Shown here in pieces: positions 34,505-41,120 of a stretch of DNA of 43,433 bases. The notes under the pieces are model-generated. The model was not told the origin of the DNA. It ran no database searches and worked only from the letters and a program-made list of their open reading frames with translations. Source of the DNA: Deltaproteobacteria bacterium (GTDB taxonomy: Bacteria > Desulfobacterota > Desulfobacteria > Desulfobacterales > UBA11574); NCBI GenBank assembly GCA_019308685.1, contig JAFDHQ010000004.1, positions 1 through 43,433 of the forward strand, read 5' to 3'. Position numbers and translations under genes: made by a program. The first letter of the stretch is position 1. Each line of letters begins with the position of its first letter.

Positions 34505-35065
34505 TTACAATCTGCATGTGCCGTCATCGCACATACAGCTTCCATCGACCTCAAAAGCATAAACAATCTTAGATTCCATCTCAGACTGTTTGGCTGAGAT
34601 AGGATCAAAATGTATATTGGTTACCTGTTCAATGAGTTCGGCTTTGGCAGGTATAGACTCAAGGCCAATTGAAATTACCTTACCGGTCGCTCCCTCGAGA
34701 ATGTCTGCATCTTCACCGTTTGTGACAACAACCACCGGTACCTGATAAGGCGCCACAAGTCTCGAAGCAGCCAGCGCGGGTCGATGCCGGGTGACCAGTG
34801 AACCGGGACCATATTTTATAATAATACAGATTTTACCTGCAAGTTTAATGGTATAATCAACTGTTATAACAGCTTTTTTATCTGCAACGGTTATAAGAAG
34901 TCCGCGGCCGGGTTCGATCTCCTTTTTAAGGTATCCTTTATGTTCCACAAGAATACGCGCCAGTTTCTGTCTGTATCTTTCATCATGAGTGTCCTGAATT
35001 GTTTCACCCGTTATAAAATCAACCAGTTCACCGAGTATGAGATGATGCCCTTGTGTATCTTTCAA
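34505..35065 (-). CDS. Stand-alone HsdR N-terminal-domain protein
   Basis: A 186-residue protein resembling the nuclease-fold N-terminal domain of type I restriction HsdR subunits (HSDR_N_2-like): ERYRQKLARILVEHKGYLKK, VDYTIKLAGKICIIIKYGPG and LAASRLVAPYQVPVVVVTNG. No helicase or other restriction gene is near. The usual PD-(D/E)xK core would read E-x-K after the hydrophobic strand; here the strand CIII is followed by KYGPG, so the acidic residue is missing and nuclease activity is doubtful. The C-terminus has three Cys (CMCDDGTC). Function unknown. The next 294 bp up to dgt hold nothing I can identify. Confidence 0.75.
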   Translation of the reverse strand: MKDTQGHHLILGELVDFITGETIQDTHDERYRQKLARILVEHKGYLKKEIEPGRGLLITVADKKAVITVDYTIKLAGKICIIIKYGPGSLVTRHRPALAASRLVAPYQVPVVVVTNGEDADILEGATGKVISIGLESIPAKAELIEQVTNIHFDPISAKQSEMESKIVYAFEVDGSCMCDDGTCRL

Positions 35066-36480: not shown

Positions 36481-37065
36481 ATGCTACCCGTAATCGATCG
36501 TAAAATCTTTGGACCTTTTTTAGAACGATTAAAAGTAATTTACTCGACTATGGATAAAAAATATCAGGAAGCCGCTGATTATTATAGTTTTCATTGTTCG
36601 GGCTGTGACGACAATTGCTGTTTTACCCGCTTTTATCATTATACCCTTTTGGAATATTTCTATATCATGGAAGGGTACAACACCCTTGCTGATGAAACGC
36701 AGGTCGAGGTGAAGCAAAGAGCTTTGGAATTGTGCCGGAAAACCCGTGAAGCTGATAAAAAAGGGTGCCCGGTCAGATTAATGTGCCCGCTTAATTGGAG
36801 CAGTTTATGTCTGATTTATACCTACCGACCCATGATATGCAGATTGCACGGCATTCCCCATATACTTCAGCGGCCGGGTCAGGGGGTTATGTATGCGCCG
36901 GGCTGCGAGGTTTTTAAAAAACAGTGTCGAAAAAAAGAGCCTTTCAAGTTTGATCGGACACCTTTTTACATGGAAATGGCCGAACTGGAAAAGGAACTGA
37001 AGCAGGCGGTCGGTATGACACAAAAGATTAAAATGACTGTGGCGCAAATGTTAATAACCTTTTAA
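36481..37065 (+). CDS. YkgJ-like Cys-cluster protein (1)
   Basis: A 194-residue protein with the CSGCDDNCC cluster (about residues 39-47) followed by CPVRLMCPL, SSLCLIYTYRPMICRLHGIP and an APGCEVF segment. This spacing is that of the YkgJ/UPF0153 family, proposed to bind zinc or an iron-sulfur cluster; function is not established. The C-terminus is helical. It is followed by a repeat element (37080-37202) and a second, distant member of the same family. Confidence 0.8.
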   Translation: MLPVIDRKIFGPFLERLKVIYSTMDKKYQEAADYYSFHCSGCDDNCCFTRFYHYTLLEYFYIMEGYNTLADETQVEVKQRALELCRKTREADKKGCPVRLMCPLNWSSLCLIYTYRPMICRLHGIPHILQRPGQGVMYAPGCEVFKKQCRKKEPFKFDRTPFYMEMAELEKELKQAVGMTQKIKMTVAQMLITF

Positions 37066-37234: not shown

Positions 37235-38017
37235 ATGAAATATATAGAAACAGAAGATATAGACCACTTGCCCGGAAAATTAATTAGAGCGGGGGATAAT
37301 TTTAATTTTCGATGTTACCCGGGCATTGACTGTTTTAATCGATGCTGCCGAAATCTCAATCTTTTTTTATACCCCTACGATGTTATCCGGCTAAAAAATA
37401 GGCTTAGAATCTCAACAGACCAGTTTATTGACAAGTATGTAGATATTGTATTGCGACCGTCCAGTTTCTTCCCGGAAGTCCTTTTACGGATGGCTAAAAA
37501 TAAAGAAAGAACCTGTCCGTTTCTGGTGGAATCAGGCTGCTCGGTTTATCCTGACCGTCCGGATACCTGCCGTACTTTTCCGATTGAACAGGGCGTTTTT
37601 TATGATGCCAAACATCATAAAACAGAACTTATTCATTTTTTCAGACCCCCTGAGTTCTGTCTCGGTCAGTATGAAAAAACAACCTGGACAATCCGAACAT
37701 GGTCAAAGGACCAGGACTCTGTTGTGTATAATAAAATGACCCTGCTCTGGTCAGAGGTAAAACGTCTGTTTCAAACCGATCCTTGGGGCGCTCAGGGACC
37801 GGAAGGGCCCAGAGCAAAGATGGCCTTTATGGCAACGTATAATATCGATCGATTTCGTGATTTTCTGTTTAACAGTACATTTTTAAAACGATACAAGGTA
37901 AAATCCGCTTTATCAAAAAAAATGCGAAATGATGATGTGGAATTAATGAAGTTCGGTTTTGATTGGGTCAAATTTTACATTTGGGGGATTAGAACCAAAC
38001 ATTTCAAACTGAGATAG
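37235..38017 (+). CDS. YkgJ-like Cys-cluster protein (2)
   Basis: A 260-residue YkgJ/UPF0153-family protein. The N-terminal cluster is CYPGIDCFNRCC (about residues 27-38), then TCPFLVESGCSVYPDRPDTC and RTFPIEQGVF, the family arrangement for a metal centre. The C-terminal about 110 residues are helical and aromatic with no known motif. It ends 16 bp before the M1-ChaN-PDZ gene, so the two are probably co-transcribed. Confidence 0.85.
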   Translation: MKYIETEDIDHLPGKLIRAGDNFNFRCYPGIDCFNRCCRNLNLFLYPYDVIRLKNRLRISTDQFIDKYVDIVLRPSSFFPEVLLRMAKNKERTCPFLVESGCSVYPDRPDTCRTFPIEQGVFYDAKHHKTELIHFFRPPEFCLGQYEKTTWTIRTWSKDQDSVVYNKMTLLWSEVKRLFQTDPWGAQGPEGPRAKMAFMATYNIDRFRDFLFNSTFLKRYKVKSALSKKMRNDDVELMKFGFDWVKFYIWGIRTKHFKLR

Positions 38018-38033
38018 TGAGTATTCACAAGTA

Positions 38034-41000
38034 ATGAGAAAACTACTTTTTCTTTTGATGGTTTGTCTGCCGGCAACGGGCTGGAGCGCTAATCTTGACT
38101 ATGCGCTAGAGGTTCAGATAAACCCCCATGAACGGAAAATCACGGGCACTGCCCGTATTAAATCTTATGCCCATATGAATATTAATTTAATGGTTCGCAA
38201 TCTGCATAAGCTGAAAGTGGATGGCAGCATCGACGTTAATGCTGCCAATGACAGCATCAATCTGACGATGCAAAAGGGCCAAAAAAAAATTATAAGTTAT
38301 GAAGCCACCTTCAACCCAAAAGGTACTAGAAGCCATCTCAAAAATAGGATTTTGGCTCAAGGTCAAGGCAGGACCGAGTTTCAACCCACAGGCATACTCA
38401 AGTATGTCGAGGACTTGAGACGAGGGTCTAACACAGAGATTGGGGGAAAAGACTTTTTTGAGATAGCTTCTAATTTCATCGACACAGAGAATGTGTTTTT
38501 AATCGACAACTGGTATCCGCGTCCGAATGTTCTGGTTACGTATGATCTTGCCGTGACGTTACCGGAAAATTTTATAGCCACTTCAGAATCTGAATCCGTA
38601 ATCATTCAAAAAAATGGAAAAACAAAAACCTTTGATTTTAAGTTCAATCACCCATTGGACCGCTTGCATCTGGCGGCTTCAACCCGGTATGTCCTGAAAA
38701 AAGACCGATATAACAATATCTCCATAGAAACTTATTTCTTCAAAGAAGATGCTCAGCTTGCAGATACGTATATTGCTTATACTAAAAAATATCTGGCAAT
38801 GTACGAAAATATGCTCACATCCTATCCATACCAGCGTTTTGCTATTGCGGAAAATATTTTCCCCACAGGCTATTCAATGCCGACTTTTTCCCTGCTGGGT
38901 AAGCAGGTGGTGAATTTACCGTTCATTGTTAAGACATCCCTAGGACATGAAATTTTACATCAGTGGTTTGGAAACTCTATTTATATTGATTTTACATCCG
39001 GCAATTGGGCGGAAGGAATCACCACTTATTTTGCGGATTATCATTATGCCGCTCTTGATGGCAAAGACACAGACTATCGCAAACAAATACTGGTAGATTA
39101 CGATGCCTATGTAAATGCTGGCAATGCCATGCCTTTGAGTGATTTTTTCAGCAGACGGAATAAGGCCCAAAGCACCATAGGCTATGGAAAATCAGCAATG
39201 TTTTTTCATGGATTAAGAGAACGCTTTGGTGATGATTCGTTCTTCGCAGCCATAAGAGCCTTCATTTATAACAATAGCTTTCGAAAAGCTTCCTGGAACG
39301 ATATACAGCGTGCTTTCGAAAAAGTAACCGGAAAAAAACTAAAACCATACTTCGAGACCTGGCTCAACCGTAAAGGTATCCCCCGACTTGAAGTAAAAAA
39401 TGCTAAGTTGCGTGTTGAGCAGGGACAAATTAAGTTAAACTTCGAACTGTTGCAAAAGGGAAAAGTTTATCCACTGATAATCCCCATATCCGTATACACC
39501 GACACGGGCAAAAATACGAAATTTATCCATGTGAAAGAATCTAAAGAAAAGATCCGTCTTTTTATGGATGAGATGCCCAGTAAAGCGGTCATTGATGAAG
39601 ACTACACAATGATGCGACATTTAGTACCCGAAGAAATTCCGCCGGTTCTGGCCGGTATGATGGGCAAACAAAAGCTGACTGTCGTTGTTTCATCCACGCA
39701 ACGGGGCATATATCAACCGATGATCGACGCGCTTGGGATTGAAAATATTACTTATGTAACCCCGAATAATATCACATTAAGTCAGATCAAAGACAATTCG
39801 TTTTTGATTGCAGGGTTTAATAATATCGCTGTAAATATGCTGTTCGGAAAACAGGCTGTTCCAAAAGATGGGATAAGAATAAAAGTTTATAAAAATCCAT
39901 ACAATGAGTCGGAGCGCATTGCCCTGTTACATGCCAAAAACAAAACAGAAGCTCAAGCGGTTCAGCGCAAAATACCCCATTACGGTAAATACACCGAGCT
40001 GGCTTTTAGAAACGGACGGAACACCTATAAAACTGTTGCCGGTACAGATAACGGCATCCGAGTGCTGTCGCGTCCGGCACCCCGAGTTCTGAAGCCCGAT
40101 ATGCCGACAACCGTAACCAGCATTATTCCATATCTTACCGCATCCCGCATTATTTACATCGGGGAAAAGCACGACCGGTTCGCCCATCATATTAACCAAC
40201 TGCAACTCATTAAAAAGATGCATAACACCGGATATAAGCTGGCTGTGGGCATGGAAATGTTCCAAAAGCCTTTTCAACCGGTGGTGAATGACTATCTGGC
40301 CGGGAGAATTGATGAGCATGAATTTTTGCAAAAGACCGAATATTTCAGCCGGTGGCGGTACGATTATAATTTATATAAACCGATCATCGATTATCTTAAA
40401 CAACACAACTTGCCCCTTGTTGCCCTTAATATTCAAGGTGATATCAGCCGTAAAGTTGCTCGTGAAGGCATATACAGTCTATCCGATAAGGAGAGGCAAC
40501 AACTTCCCCGTTCCATGGATTTTTCAAATGAACGCTACCGGAAAGATTTGAAGGAGGTGTTTCCTTGGCATAAGGAACATGGGGAGTTAAGAGATTTTAG
40601 TCACTTTTTACAGGCTCAAATTTTATGGGATGAAGCCATGGCGGAATCCGCTCAAAAATTCCTAACCGCCAATGCGGAAAGCAAACTGGTGATACTGGCA
40701 GGAAATGGTCACATTAAACATAAATATGGAATTCCTGAACGTCTTTATCGGAGAAACCACGAAGCTTTTTCGGTGATTGTGCAGGATGAAGAAATTGAAG
40801 ACGGAATTGCTGATTATGTGCTTATTACCACAAAATTAGAGGGAGATAAGTCTCCGAAACTTGGGGTAATAATTGAAGAAAAAGACCAAGGACTTGAAGT
40901 CATGCGTATGCTTCCCAATAGCCCTGCCAAGAAAGCAGGATTGCAGGAAGGTGATATTATTCAAATGGTTGCAGGCCAGTCAATACAATCGCTGGCAGAC

Positions 41001-41120
41001 TTGAAACTTGCACTGTTTTACAGCACAGTTGGTAGCAGGCTCAAAATTCAGATTGAAAGGGCGGGTAAGAACCTGGATAAAGAGATTGATTTGTTCCATC
41101 ATTCCTCTAGAAAAAAATAA
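38034..41120 (+). CDS. Exported M1-peptidase / ChaN / PDZ fusion protein
   Basis: A 1028-residue protein with a signal peptide (MRKLLFLLMVCLPATGWSA). Residues about 20-450 form an M1 aminopeptidase-like part with HEILHQWFGN (His305, Glu306, His309) and the third zinc ligand Glu in GNWAEGITTYFADY; the gap is 17 residues rather than the usual 18, and the GAMEN exopeptidase motif is replaced by PTGYSMP (about 278). Residues about 450-690 are a beta-rich linker. Residues about 700-930 match ChaN, a heme-binding lipoprotein family (YIGEKHDRFAHHINQLQLI, VGMEMFQKPFQPV, LAGNGHIKHKYGIP). Residues about 940-1015 are a PDZ domain (LPNSPAKKAGLQEGDIIQ). Probably periplasmic or surface-located. The joint function is unknown. 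Confidence 0.88.
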   Translation: MRKLLFLLMVCLPATGWSANLDYALEVQINPHERKITGTARIKSYAHMNINLMVRNLHKLKVDGSIDVNAANDSINLTMQKGQKKIISYEATFNPKGTRSHLKNRILAQGQGRTEFQPTGILKYVEDLRRGSNTEIGGKDFFEIASNFIDTENVFLIDNWYPRPNVLVTYDLAVTLPENFIATSESESVIIQKNGKTKTFDFKFNHPLDRLHLAASTRYVLKKDRYNNISIETYFFKEDAQLADTYIAYTKKYLAMYENMLTSYPYQRFAIAENIFPTGYSMPTFSLLGKQVVNLPFIVKTSLGHEILHQWFGNSIYIDFTSGNWAEGITTYFADYHYAALDGKDTDYRKQILVDYDAYVNAGNAMPLSDFFSRRNKAQSTIGYGKSAMFFHGLRERFGDDSFFAAIRAFIYNNSFRKASWNDIQRAFEKVTGKKLKPYFETWLNRKGIPRLEVKNAKLRVEQGQIKLNFELLQKGKVYPLIIPISVYTDTGKNTKFIHVKESKEKIRLFMDEMPSKAVIDEDYTMMRHLVPEEIPPVLAGMMGKQKLTVVVSSTQRGIYQPMIDALGIENITYVTPNNITLSQIKDNSFLIAGFNNIAVNMLFGKQAVPKDGIRIKVYKNPYNESERIALLHAKNKTEAQAVQRKIPHYGKYTELAFRNGRNTYKTVAGTDNGIRVLSRPAPRVLKPDMPTTVTSIIPYLTASRIIYIGEKHDRFAHHINQLQLIKKMHNTGYKLAVGMEMFQKPFQPVVNDYLAGRIDEHEFLQKTEYFSRWRYDYNLYKPIIDYLKQHNLPLVALNIQGDISRKVAREGIYSLSDKERQQLPRSMDFSNERYRKDLKEVFPWHKEHGELRDFSHFLQAQILWDEAMAESAQKFLTANAESKLVILAGNGHIKHKYGIPERLYRRNHEAFSVIVQDEEIEDGIADYVLITTKLEGDKSPKLGVIIEEKDQGLEVMRMLPNSPAKKAGLQEGDIIQMVAGQSIQSLADLKLALFYSTVGSRLKIQIERAGKNLDKEIDLFHHSSRKK

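Follow-up and report, generated by a model that had tools for sequence, protein, structure and literature searches.

The gene at positions 38034-41120 (plus strand, ATG start) of the 43,433-nucleotide stretch of DNA analyzed here (the window) encodes an exported protein of 1028 amino acids, in which a divergent M1-like peptidase module with a complete zinc site and a ChaN domain with the catalytic quartet of the TIKI superfamily are joined in one chain that ends in a PDZ domain, and this architecture recurs in several bacterial phyla. The protein has about an even chance, in our estimation, of being a soluble periplasmic two-site peptidase or hydrolase whose PDZ domain captures substrates. This reading starts from four observations, namely the domain content, the conservation of the catalytic residues, the repeated occurrence of the fusion and the side-by-side position of the two halves where they are separate genes; from these we infer that both sites are active, that the substrates are peptides and that the PDZ domain captures them.

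A preliminary description of this gene had identified its open reading frame and placed Peptidase_M1, ChaN and PDZ modules behind a single signal peptide, and it was right in all of these, since the three domains score above the Pfam curated cut-offs (Table 1): Peptidase_M1 with 44.9 bits (cut-off 27.7), PDZ_2 with 47.3 bits, and ChaN, which had been expected within residues 700-930, with 214.3 bits (cut-off 27.7) over profile positions 5-213 of 213, i.e., as a full-length domain. The signal peptide, MRKLLFLLMVCLPATGWSA, has no lipobox by direct reading of the sequence, and comparable hydrophobic N-termini are seen in most homologues. An N-terminal beta domain (residues 20-190) follows it. Three parts had been missed: a beta-sandwich, an alpha/beta domain and a 48-residue insertion encoded by a miniature transposable element (MITE). 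The AF2 model of the whole protein has a mean pLDDT of 86.9 and a pTM of 0.80, and pLDDT values below 50 are confined to the signal peptide (residues 10-17), residues 98-144 and the final four residues.

Table 1. Features of the fused gene; positions are those of the window and residue numbers those of the 1028-residue product.
Feature	Position	Strand	Evidence
Whole gene: exported M1-like / BcsB-FD-like / ChaN(TIKI) / PDZ protein, 1028 aa	38034..41120	+	
Sec signal peptide, residues 1-19, without lipobox	38034..38090	+	Sequence reading; homologue N-termini alike
In-frame MITE of 144 bp, TA duplication counted in; adds ~48 residues (99-146) with predicted disorder	38327..38470	+	Absent in sisters; inverted repeats; genome copies; pLDDT <50 at 98-144
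M1-like metallopeptidase module, residues 150-460	38481..39413	+	PF01433 at 303-443; matches to M1 aminopeptidase structures
G-Y-S-M-P-T (279-284), in position of M1 GAMEN exopeptidase loop	38868..38885	+	Structure alignments; motif survey
HEILH (305-309) ... E327 zinc site, x17 spacing	38946..39014	+	Invariant in 41-row alignment; spacing survey
Tyr384, putative M1 catalytic Tyr	39183..39185	+	Invariant in 41-row alignment; aligned with Y of 'YSKG' in M1 structures
Beta-sandwich (447-538), like third domain of M1 enzymes	39372..39647	+	Strands in AF2 model; sequence profile
Alpha/beta domain (541-692), fold like BcsB flavodoxin-like domain	39654..40109	+	No Pfam family; Foldseek to BcsB 9fmt_C, E 3.0e-5
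ChaN / TIKI-superfamily domain (701-904)	40134..40745	+	PF04187 E 2.6e-63; 2g5g E 3.9e-13
2His/2Glu quartet span: GEKH (E711, H713), E741 in MEMFQKPFQ, H893 in GNGH	40161..40712	+	Invariant in 41-row alignment; 90/91 ChaN domains
PDZ domain (941-1020), HtrA/DegP type	40854..41093	+	Pfam PDZ_2; DegP matches

The M1-like module resembles M1 aminopeptidases by sequence and by fold (full model against 8cgp, E 1.3e-25), and it shares with enzymes such as IRAP, ERAP1, PepN and F3 the Pfam match, the HExxH motif, the distal glutamate, the catalytic tyrosine and the overall fold; H305, E306, H309, E327 and Y384 are invariant in a 41-row alignment of homologues. It differs from them in two respects. 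The zinc ligands H305, H309 and E327 are present, but the spacing between HExxH and the glutamate is x17 in this copy and in 57 of the 65 members of a wider set that have HExxH (x16 in six, x18 in none), and G[YF]xxP[TS] takes the place of the GAMEN (GxMEN) loop wherever it can be recognized in this set. Canonical M1 enzymes of related genomes (L105-L110), in contrast, have the x18 spacing and GAMEN or GGMEN. The glutamate of GAMEN anchors the free N-terminus of the substrate in M1 aminopeptidases, and because it is missing here while the zinc site is kept with x17 rather than x18 spacing, the module is probably not an ordinary aminopeptidase; given the absent loop and the shortened ligand spacing, the site may also be non-canonical or weak. 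It would then form a second, zinc-dependent peptidase site whose trimming or cutting, because the N-terminus-anchoring loop is missing, probably does not follow the classical chemistry of aminopeptidases.

The other putative active site lies in the ChaN domain. E711, H713, E741 and H893 are invariant among the 41 aligned sequences, and the 2His/2Glu quartet that they form is kept in 90 of 91 ChaN domains, fused or unfused, including those of members that lack the M1 site. TIKI-superfamily enzymes use two histidines and two glutamates, all four of which are essential by mutagenesis in the endopeptidase VvRRSP; the VvRRSP structure resembles the ChaN structure 2g5g, and the Ere-type relatives are esterases (PMC6254334). 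The protein thus has in common with VvRRSP, Tiki and the esterase Ere/Bcr135 the E-x-H, E, H pattern on a ChaN fold, but its context would be one of bacterial periplasmic housekeeping, neither host- nor Wnt-directed. Because the quartet is so widely kept, the ChaN domain here is more probably a hydrolase, protease- or esterase-like, than a heme carrier.

Is the M1-derived site needed for whatever the ChaN domain does? Three loci are natural M1-dead versions that retain the ChaN quartet and the PDZ domain: in L143 an M1-sized region lacks HExxH, and in L144 and L148 the M1 catalytic domain is gone while the beta and middle domains remain along with ChaN and PDZ. Because of these losses the two sites, as read from the sequences, are not always required together. 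Persistence of the quartet in these three proteins, like the esterase activity of the Ere-type relatives (PMC6254334), fits an alternative in which the protein is a hydrolase centered on its ChaN/TIKI site and acts on something other than protein (an ester, a lipid or a glycan-linked compound), while the M1 and BcsB-like parts mainly provide a scaffold for substrate binding. The middle of the protein also lends itself to that view. Modelled by itself, this region gives a pLDDT of 85.4, and although residues 541-692 have no sequence match in Pfam or the PDB, Foldseek finds for them the cellulose-synthase subunit BcsB and parts of GH84 and GH115 enzymes, which are carbohydrate-associated folds; in the model this is a resemblance of fold to the BcsB flavodoxin domain and not family membership. 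Against a non-protein substrate stand the invariance of the M1 zinc site and tyrosine in the 41-row alignment, the retention of the zinc site by M1 halves that stand alone, and the PDZ domain, as such domains usually recognize peptides. We regard this alternative as unlikely. In the two-site peptidase or hydrolase that we prefer, the beta-sandwich and the BcsB-like alpha/beta domain would join both sites into one body.

The nearest relatives of the PDZ domain are those of DegP/HtrA, and it would capture substrates, probably via exposed C-termini. Bacterial PDZ domains mostly accompany proteases according to a 2019 catalogue, whose entry for a 'Haem-binding uptake, Tiki superfamily' family lists 37 uncharacterized members, e.g., Desulfovibrio DVU_3254, with PDZ domains best matched by HtrA-type structures (PMC6411480). 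That family and the present protein share the combination of ChaN with PDZ, but as the catalogue's entry describes it the family consists of ChaN and PDZ only, whereas in the present protein these two follow an M1-like module and a BcsB-like domain. In our tree most proteins with only ChaN and PDZ group with other stand-alone ChaN domains, outside most of the fused ones.

The preliminary description had proposed that the protein couples periplasmic binding or cleavage of peptides to heme or iron handling. The peptidase and substrate-binding part of that proposal agrees with the conserved zinc ligands and the PDZ domain; the heme or iron part had the name of the Pfam family as its sole basis and is made less likely by the TIKI quartet in 90 of 91 domains and by a neighborhood in which no heme-uptake genes recur. 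Its more specific form, turnover of heme or c-type cytochromes, in which the peptidase would digest (cyto)heme proteins or peptides and ChaN would bind the released heme or hemopeptide, deserves separate consideration. With the ChaN-part profile, the closest solved relative found is 2g5g, the crystal structure of ChaN from C. jejuni, a heme-binding lipoprotein; its 2006 crystal paper reportedly describes a heme-binding dimer with heme bound by a tyrosine, and His/Lys contacts to the heme propionates belong to this type of ChaN. It is not known to have hydrolase activity, and, as far as we know, the heme-binding annotation of ChaN domains in many genomes goes back to that one crystal structure. 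The domain studied here is homologous to it over the full length of PF04187, and in the alignment 2g5g also has the quartet, with both GxxH motifs and both glutamates; this same quartet, as the hydrolytic one of TIKI enzymes, speaks against heme turnover. By our reading of the alignment few of the 2g5g tyrosines in the aligned part are matched by tyrosine here, and the tyrosine of the W..DY motif is conserved in only 67 of 91 sequences. The settings differ as well, 2g5g being of a type that is a small lipoprotein beside a heme receptor and the present domain being part of a soluble, enzyme-like protein of ~1000 residues with neighbors unrelated to heme. Multiheme cytochromes are abundant in the hosts, and PF13435 occurs in every sampled genome of the phylum that has the fused gene, but this signal is weak and confounded by lineage, and we set the correlation aside as uninformative because PF13435 is found in 159 of the 197 genomes of the phylum sample anyway. 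Taken together, heme or cytochrome turnover appears to us improbable, to about the same degree as the non-protein substrate above.

The genomic neighborhood was scanned over 122 neighboring proteins, among which families for heme uptake do not recur, be they TonB receptors, heme ABC transporters or others, and a heme-uptake locus was rejected as the recurrent context. In Nitrospirota (L014, L016, L024, L025, L027, L028 and L035) the fused gene lies after thiG-thiE-thiC, a cluster in which a gene for a small ADK-like kinase is often present too, and at some of these loci thiD follows the fused gene; a link to thiamine was judged lineage-specific, as outside Nitrospirota only a distant thiE was seen, in Sulfurimonas. 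In the window, two CxxCxxCC (YkgJ-type, putative Zn/Fe-chelating) proteins are encoded in tandem directly upstream of the fused gene, at 36481-37065 and 37235-38017. The second is kept beside the fused gene in L002-L006 and the first in L002-L005, the PF03692 match of the first being below the Pfam cut-off. A small stand-alone HSDR_N_2 protein (type I restriction R-subunit N-terminal) is encoded at 34505-35065 on the minus strand and is likewise kept beside the locus in L002-L005.

A single scan of species genomes yielded 55 related loci, and 43 proteins, counting this copy, can be aligned from their first half through to the C-terminus. M1 and ChaN are found in 41 of 41 aligned homologues and PDZ_2 in 40 of these, and the hosts belong to Thermodesulfobacteriota, Nitrospirota, Campylobacterota (Sulfurimonas, Arcobacter), Aquificota, Schekmanbacteria and others. 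The closest ChaN matches in the Nitrospirota and Campylobacterota samples lie almost all in frames of ~930-1030 amino acids (two are shorter), and the weaker ones in frames of ~210-530 amino acids. On a tree of the Desulfobacterota sample, fused and stand-alone ChaN domains are mostly separate, with 12 changes of the 'fused' label against a mean of 29.0 after shuffling; a clade of 21 rows, made up of ChaN domains from stand-alone and adjacent genes, is starred on this tree.

Relatives in which the two halves are separate, unrelated genes had been named as an observation that would speak for a chance fusion. The separate halves that we found are instead neighbors, in three arrangements: M1 then ChaN on the same strand (L114), ChaN-PDZ then M1 on the same strand (L120), and divergent M1 and ChaN halves at Sedimenticola-type loci (L049, L050, L052 and L054), where the M1 half has a signal peptide of its own and the ChaN-PDZ half a lipobox, seen in L049 and L050 as a lipobox-like LSAC. 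That split halves remain neighbors is a strong argument that the two share a function, and their coupling, seen also as fusion in several phyla, is real, as had been suggested. A paralogous M1 half lies close to the fused gene in L012, and a frame change splits the gene at residue 533 in L036, which may be an assembly error. That the fusion is due to chance or an assembly artefact is extremely improbable and we consider it refuted, for although the source is a metagenome-assembled genome of 283 contigs and this copy has a MITE insertion, M1 and ChaN occur together in all aligned homologues and in dozens of independent genomes, some of them single-contig assemblies (G177, G089; CP070737), and on the tree the ChaN domains of fused proteins group together.

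The insertion itself is absent at the same site in four close sister genes (L002-L005). The element has terminal inverted repeats of 18 nt (38327-38344 and 38455-38472), TAGAAGCCATCTCAAAAA, and the same genome holds 13 full-length copies with 82-100% identity plus fragments; related elements of the same length are present in other genera of the order. Most copies have one stop-free frame per strand, and because of this the element is read through as 48 residues in the fused gene. Two more of the 13 copies are also read through in frame, in a 436-residue membrane-like protein (L063) and in a 535-residue DUF2064 plus glycosyltransferase-2 protein (L064). In the latter (L064:32-1636) the MITE peptide lies between the DUF2064 and family-2 glycosyltransferase domains in one open frame, where the element may have fused what were two genes or made a linker longer. 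Rickettsia and Coxiella are known to have mobile repeats within reading frames. No purifying selection was seen on the MITE-encoded peptide (synonymous share 0.19, with 0.27 expected), and because of this and its predicted disorder the 48 residues are probably tolerated baggage.

In a limited literature search we found no description of an architecture of M1, BcsB-like, ChaN and PDZ parts. We tentatively raise the possibility, less probable than the two-site reading itself, that these proteins form a new class of two-chemistry periplasmic peptidases, in which one chain would combine a zinc site that derives from M1 but lacks GAMEN with a TIKI-type 2His/2Glu site, a PDZ domain would feed both, and which several phyla of anaerobic and sulfur-cycling bacteria would have retained. 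Under the two-site reading that we prefer, the protein would be a Sec-exported, soluble hydrolase of the periplasm and, most likely, a peptidase acting in the turnover of proteins or peptides. The GAMEN-less M1 branch is a natural test of the role of that loop, and a ChaN family that keeps the TIKI quartet and is tied to a peptidase module makes the question of whether bacterial ChaN is an enzyme directly testable. If true, a two-chemistry peptidase would give the ChaN/TIKI fold a first housekeeping role as an enzyme in bacteria.
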